From assembly GCF_011397635.1 (NCBI RefSeq), contig NC_064753.1, positions 24,948,322 to 25,012,321 of the forward strand: a stretch of 64,000 nucleotides of DNA. The letters are read 5' to 3'. Each line of letters begins with the position of its first letter. Position 1 is the first letter of the stretch. The DNA comes from Epinephelus fuscoguttatus (Eukaryota > Chordata > Actinopteri > Perciformes > Serranidae). Positions 27,286 to 29,851 of this stretch are shown one piece after another. The notes beneath the pieces were generated by a model. It made no database searches, was not told where the DNA came from, and worked only from the letters and a program-made list of their open reading frames with translations. The position numbers were made by a program, and so were the translations under genes.

Positions 27286-29851
<2,566 letters not shown>

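Follow-up and report, generated by a model that had tools for sequence, protein, structure and literature searches.

Whether four nucleotides can make up an exon of their own, and whether such an exon would switch pyruvate import on or off, are the questions raised by the MPC1 gene of Epinephelus fuscoguttatus, which lies within the 64,000-nt stretch of DNA analyzed here (the window). Coordinates are those of the window, and all features of MPC1 and its introns given below lie on the + strand.

Gene Model and Possible Joins of Exons 1 and 3

The coding part of exon 1 (27286–27356, 71 nt) ends in ATGAG/gtaaga and in the alignment matches the beginning of human MPC1. It is followed by the 4-nt microexon CACG (28558–28561) in the context tcaacag/CACG/gtaagtac, with a 3′ splice-site AG at 28556–28557 that was read from the sequence and from the joining of the exons, and then by exon 3 (28877–28973, 97 nt; acag/CATTTCTGG), which begins CAT TTC TGG. 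Exon 4 (29365–29497) is 133 nt long, and the coding part of the last exon runs from 29827 to the end of the stop codon at 29851. The positions, lengths, and splice sites of the first three exons agree in every respect with the initial annotation. When the exons are joined, CACG finishes the Ser codon and then supplies Thr, and the frame can be read directly through 109 residues to the stop. The joined protein matched the Pfam MPC family (PF03650, E 2.3e-34), and it aligned without gaps to residues 1–106 of human MPC1, with Met-Ser-Thr-His-Phe-Trp inside the aligned part. It is nearer to MPC1 than to MPC2 (E 5e-61 for the human MPC1 chain vs 8.5e-11 for the MPC2 chain).

Joins of exons 1 and 3 were enumerated, GT or GC being allowed as donor and AG as acceptor. 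No two-exon model (donors 27330–27700, acceptors from 28600) reached HFWGP in frame without a stop, which supports the earlier claim that MPC1 needs a 4-nt exon. A different exon 1 donor or exon 3 acceptor that could take the place of 28558–28561 was also looked for, and the other donors in 27340–27356 and acceptors in 28840–28900 gave no fitting GT/GC-AG model with one middle exon. With the exon 1 donor and the exon 3 acceptor fixed, three models with a single middle exon of 1–60 nt fit EYLM[ST][ST]HFWGP, and in all three the middle exon is 4 nt long: CTCG at 27439, CTCA at 27629, and CACG at 28558. Among these candidates, Ser-Thr comes from CACG only, as had been proposed when CACG was said to restore Met-Ser-Thr-His-Phe-Trp, while the other two give Ser-Ser. 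MAG/GTRAGT is the donor consensus, and against it the microexon donor GTAAGT (28562–28567) scores 8/9, counting the last three exon bases, vs 5/9 for the donor at 27439 and 3/9 for that at 27629; three other MPC1 donors checked in the same way score 7, 7, and 8.

These scores bear on the idea that a different 4-nt exon of the same intron, CTCG (27439–27442) or CTCA (27629–27632), is the one used. Both keep the frame and have canonical AG and GT ends, but they place Ser-Ser where human MPC1 has Ser-Thr, their donors are much poorer than that of CACG, and the human exon, TACG, differs from CACG at one base, T vs C at the first position (Koh, Shin and Kim, 2023; PMC9929638); we regard this idea as extremely improbable. 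A gene with no microexon at all, in which exon 1 ends or exon 3 starts elsewhere or in which splicing follows a U12-type AT-AC junction or another non-canonical one, appears just as improbable. The enumeration covered GT and GC donors with AG acceptors, which leaves this explanation some room through AT-AC introns, but it has against it the absence of any in-frame two-exon model with a GT or GC donor and the presence of the microexon in the human gene (Koh et al., 2023).

The pattern around the microexon was compared with chance expectation in 2000 dinucleotide shuffles of the 1520 nt between exons 1 and 3. Nine AG-N4-GT sites were seen there vs a shuffle mean of 7.8, and the bare pattern was rejected as evidence. 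Of the shuffles, 23% contained a Ser-Thr tetramer followed by a plain GT, 4.2% contained AG-N4-GTAAGT with any tetramer, and 0.25% combined a Ser-Thr tetramer with GTAAG. The whole window, both strands counted, has seven AG-N4-GTAAG sites, including the microexon and another (29285) in a different MPC1 intron, so this motif is by itself no mark of an exon and was counted as weak evidence. We conclude from the shuffles that the strength of the case lies in the protein constraint, the donor, and the known human exon, and not in the pattern alone.

Upstream Layout and the Human Counterpart

The 3′ splice site of the microexon has a distal layout. An AG-free zone of 65 nt (28491–28555), beginning at −67, lies upstream of the acceptor; gaps of at least 65 nt make up 124 of the 8493 gaps between neighboring AGs on both strands of the window. 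Eleven other acceptors served as controls (three in MPC1, five in a fibulin-like gene, and three in MPC2); the positions of the eight non-MPC1 acceptors were judged by eye from reading frames, that at 14703 is doubtful, and all were counted. The microexon zone is the longest of the 12, followed by one of 60 nt at a fibulin-like gene control, and with one of 11 controls so close to it the zone alone was judged weak evidence. YTNAY is the branch-site motif, and inside the zone its adenines occur at −59 (28499, within CTTAT) and at −49 (28509) only, with none at −68 or −64; by motif match, these two are candidate branch adenines. A pyrimidine tract was read from the sequence at about −46 to −33 (28512–28525), and the best 15-nt stretch upstream of the microexon, which starts at −45, holds 14 pyrimidines. 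Close to the acceptor, from −20 to −4, only 5 of 17 positions are pyrimidines, vs 10–16 of 17 at the 11 other acceptors. One control also has its best pyrimidine stretch further out (−50), but this stretch is weak (10/15). The pyrimidine tract and the branch-like site earlier ascribed to the microexon are thus both present, but the tract does not abut the acceptor. As far as motifs can tell, this layout would fit an exon whose branch point lies further out than usual. A local RNA fold bringing the branch region near the acceptor was considered and rejected, as 28485–28573 folds like its shuffles (z −0.01).

The initial annotation had asked whether such a structure is described in other vertebrates. 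It is: in the available parts of their report, Koh et al. (2023) describe human MPC1 exon 2 as a 4-bp exon, and they followed the microexon in mouse cell lines by RT-PCR. The structure is therefore already known from human MPC1 and is not new. No skipped MPC1 mRNA was detected in 786-O cells, cycloheximide treatment included, and several other lines, both human and mouse, showed almost complete inclusion (Koh et al., 2023). The major branch adenines of the human exon were mapped at −68 and −64 (given as −63 in the Discussion of that report), with a pyrimidine tract at −67 to −43. The median branch point, as cited in the same report, lies 28 nt upstream. In reporters, 67 nt upstream and 6 nt downstream suffice for the 4-bp exon, and in separate minigenes exons cut to 2, 1, or 0 nt were still spliced (Koh et al., 2023). 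The authors state that the microexon and the near introns are highly conserved across species (their Figure S1).

As far as this report allows the comparison, the fish and human exons are alike in gene, length, distal pyrimidine tract, and room for a distal branch point, and their place in the protein and reading phase, derived from TACG and the aligned proteins, are the same. The likeness is one of layout and not of aligned intron sequence. The tract lies at −46 to −33 in the fish and at −67 to −43 in human. The upstream intron is 1.2 kb long in the fish vs over 12 kb in human, and the downstream intron 0.3 kb vs over 3 kb. The human 67-nt region carries a TGTCTG direct repeat, whose role its authors leave open (Koh et al., 2023), and this repeat is absent from the 75 nt upstream of the fish microexon. 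Exons with distant branch points and long AG-exclusion zones were described by Gooding et al. (2006; PMC1431707), and in the parts of that report available they resemble the fish exon in that a stretch free of AG carries, near its upstream end, a candidate branch site and a tract; at 65 nt, the fish zone falls short of the classes of 80 nt and 150 nt for which they were counted. Other coding microexons whose length is not a multiple of three are cited by Koh et al. (2023) in TNNI1 (4 bp), KSR1 and TMEM237 (5 bp), and MUSK (7 bp). Like that of MPC1, they are very short, lose the frame if skipped, and are found in endogenous mRNA, whereas in the HeLa reporters of that report their near flanks, unlike those of MPC1, did not give full inclusion. 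Among the literature matches listed, which cover the field in part, there was no report of a fish mpc1 microexon, and we make no claim that it is unpublished.

Taking the protein and the human data together, we consider it very likely that 28558–28561 is the fish ortholog of the constitutive 4-nt human MPC1 exon 2, an intron-defined exon that is included in the mRNA. We infer inclusion, constitutive use, and mechanism in the fish from the human data. The mechanism is likely to be constitutive exon definition, in which a distal 3′ splice site acts together with a strong donor. What marks out the microexon would be its introns, with a distal branch point and tract, no AG from there to the acceptor, and GTAAGT as a strong donor, and not its own four bases; this would be why it reaches the mature mRNA. 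Owing to the distance, the factors of the 3′ and 5′ splice sites can probably flank so short an exon, an idea put forward by Koh et al. (2023) for the human exon. Inclusion would keep the frame and yield Met-Ser-Thr-His-Phe-Trp.

MPC2, Repeats, and Surrounding Sequence

The genome (1.05 Gb, 26 contigs) was searched for further copies. A DNA search with 221 bases around the microexon, in which the best candidates were scored, gave one match, the window itself, and a search for the MPC family matched four exons, of which two belong to MPC1 and two to a gene (G000:C13, L005) that reads as MPC2, the paralogous carrier subunit. Among the best candidates scored by these searches, neither the microexon region nor MPC1 had a second copy; the family search also misses short exons, so that a further copy may exist. 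By eye, T-V-F-F-W of MPC2 corresponds to S-T-H-F-W of MPC1. In MPC2, a single exon of about 41 nt (L005 594–634, ends placed by eye) holds these residues, with no microexon there, and the junction upstream of that exon appears by eye to be about three codons further upstream and in a different phase. Within this genome, then, MPC1 shows the microexon, whereas none is seen at the corresponding place of MPC2.

Four copies of the heptamer TATCTGT lie around the microexon (28498–28624). The copy at 28498 overlies the candidate branch region, and those at 28592, 28602, and 28618 lie just downstream of the microexon. None of 2000 shuffles reached four copies in 28481–28700, a figure to be read with the motif having been picked post hoc. 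A heptamer occurring four times, simple ones excluded, is found in 5 of 1160 window tiles of 220 nt, and two of these five are the microexon place.

The window holds further genes and open frames. Upstream of MPC1, at 11195–15881 (+), are the exons of the fibulin-like gene, with a Sushi repeat, calcium-binding EGF, and a Fibulin C-terminal domain; from the domain order we take it to be perhaps fibulin-7. Among the open frames listed, non-LTR retrotransposon reverse transcriptase-like ones were noted by eye at 19951–21444 (−) and, in several frames, at 50954–52190 (+). A Tc1/mariner-like transposase open frame (Pfam HTH_Tnp_Tc3_2 among others) lies at 53023–53499 (+), with a further frame to 54019. 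An open frame near the end of the window (63700–63999, +) is Cys-rich and zinc-knuckle-like toward its C-terminus, and no Pfam match was found for it at E 0.001.

Consequences of Skipping and the Switch Idea

The initial annotation had held that skipping of CACG destroys the protein by a frameshift, and translation bears this out: the skipped frame stops after residue 29, at a stop codon (28893–28895) that lies 78 nt upstream of the 3′ end of exon 3. By the 50-nt rule for nonsense-mediated decay (NMD), this distance makes decay of a skipped mRNA likely. An occasional skip would thus give a 29-residue product from an mRNA that is probably decayed. That skipping shifts the frame does not imply regulation.

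A regulated switch would mean skipping of the microexon in certain tissues or states, with frameshift and NMD lowering MPC1 and pyruvate import. The position of the stop codon fits such a switch, and the TATCTGT repeats flank the microexon as regulator sites might. Aligners often misplace 4-nt exons, a point against the one further observation in its favor, which comes from mouse heart. There, a skipped-exon difference in Mpc1 between newborn and adult is listed, and the exon is unnamed in the available text (PMC8872128). The human exon speaks against a switch: as noted above, it showed no detected skipping in 786-O cells, and inclusion in the other human and mouse lines was almost complete (Koh et al., 2023). 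On balance, we hold a regulated switch to be very unlikely. The earlier suggestion that inclusion of CACG could switch pyruvate import is unsupported, and the fish microexon is no evidence of a metabolic switch. We give equally little credence to the conjecture that the exon has become a regulated gate in the fish, its inclusion being made adjustable by the distal branch point, the shorter introns, and the four TATCTGT repeats. If this were true, skipping and NMD would set the dose of MPC1 in one tissue or stage or another, in contrast to mammalian cell lines, where inclusion is locked in.

The constitutive reading remains the one that we prefer, and the 4-nt exon of the fish looks like a conserved splicing curiosity that is probably no on/off switch. 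Exons this small can escape automatic annotation and short-read aligners, and a missed microexon would leave a false frameshift in mpc1. The case indicates that a fish and mammals have in common both a coding exon of 4 nt, close to the lower size limit of exons, and its unusual distal 3′ splice-site layout, and this sharing of exon and layout supports the published view of the exon as one defined by its introns.
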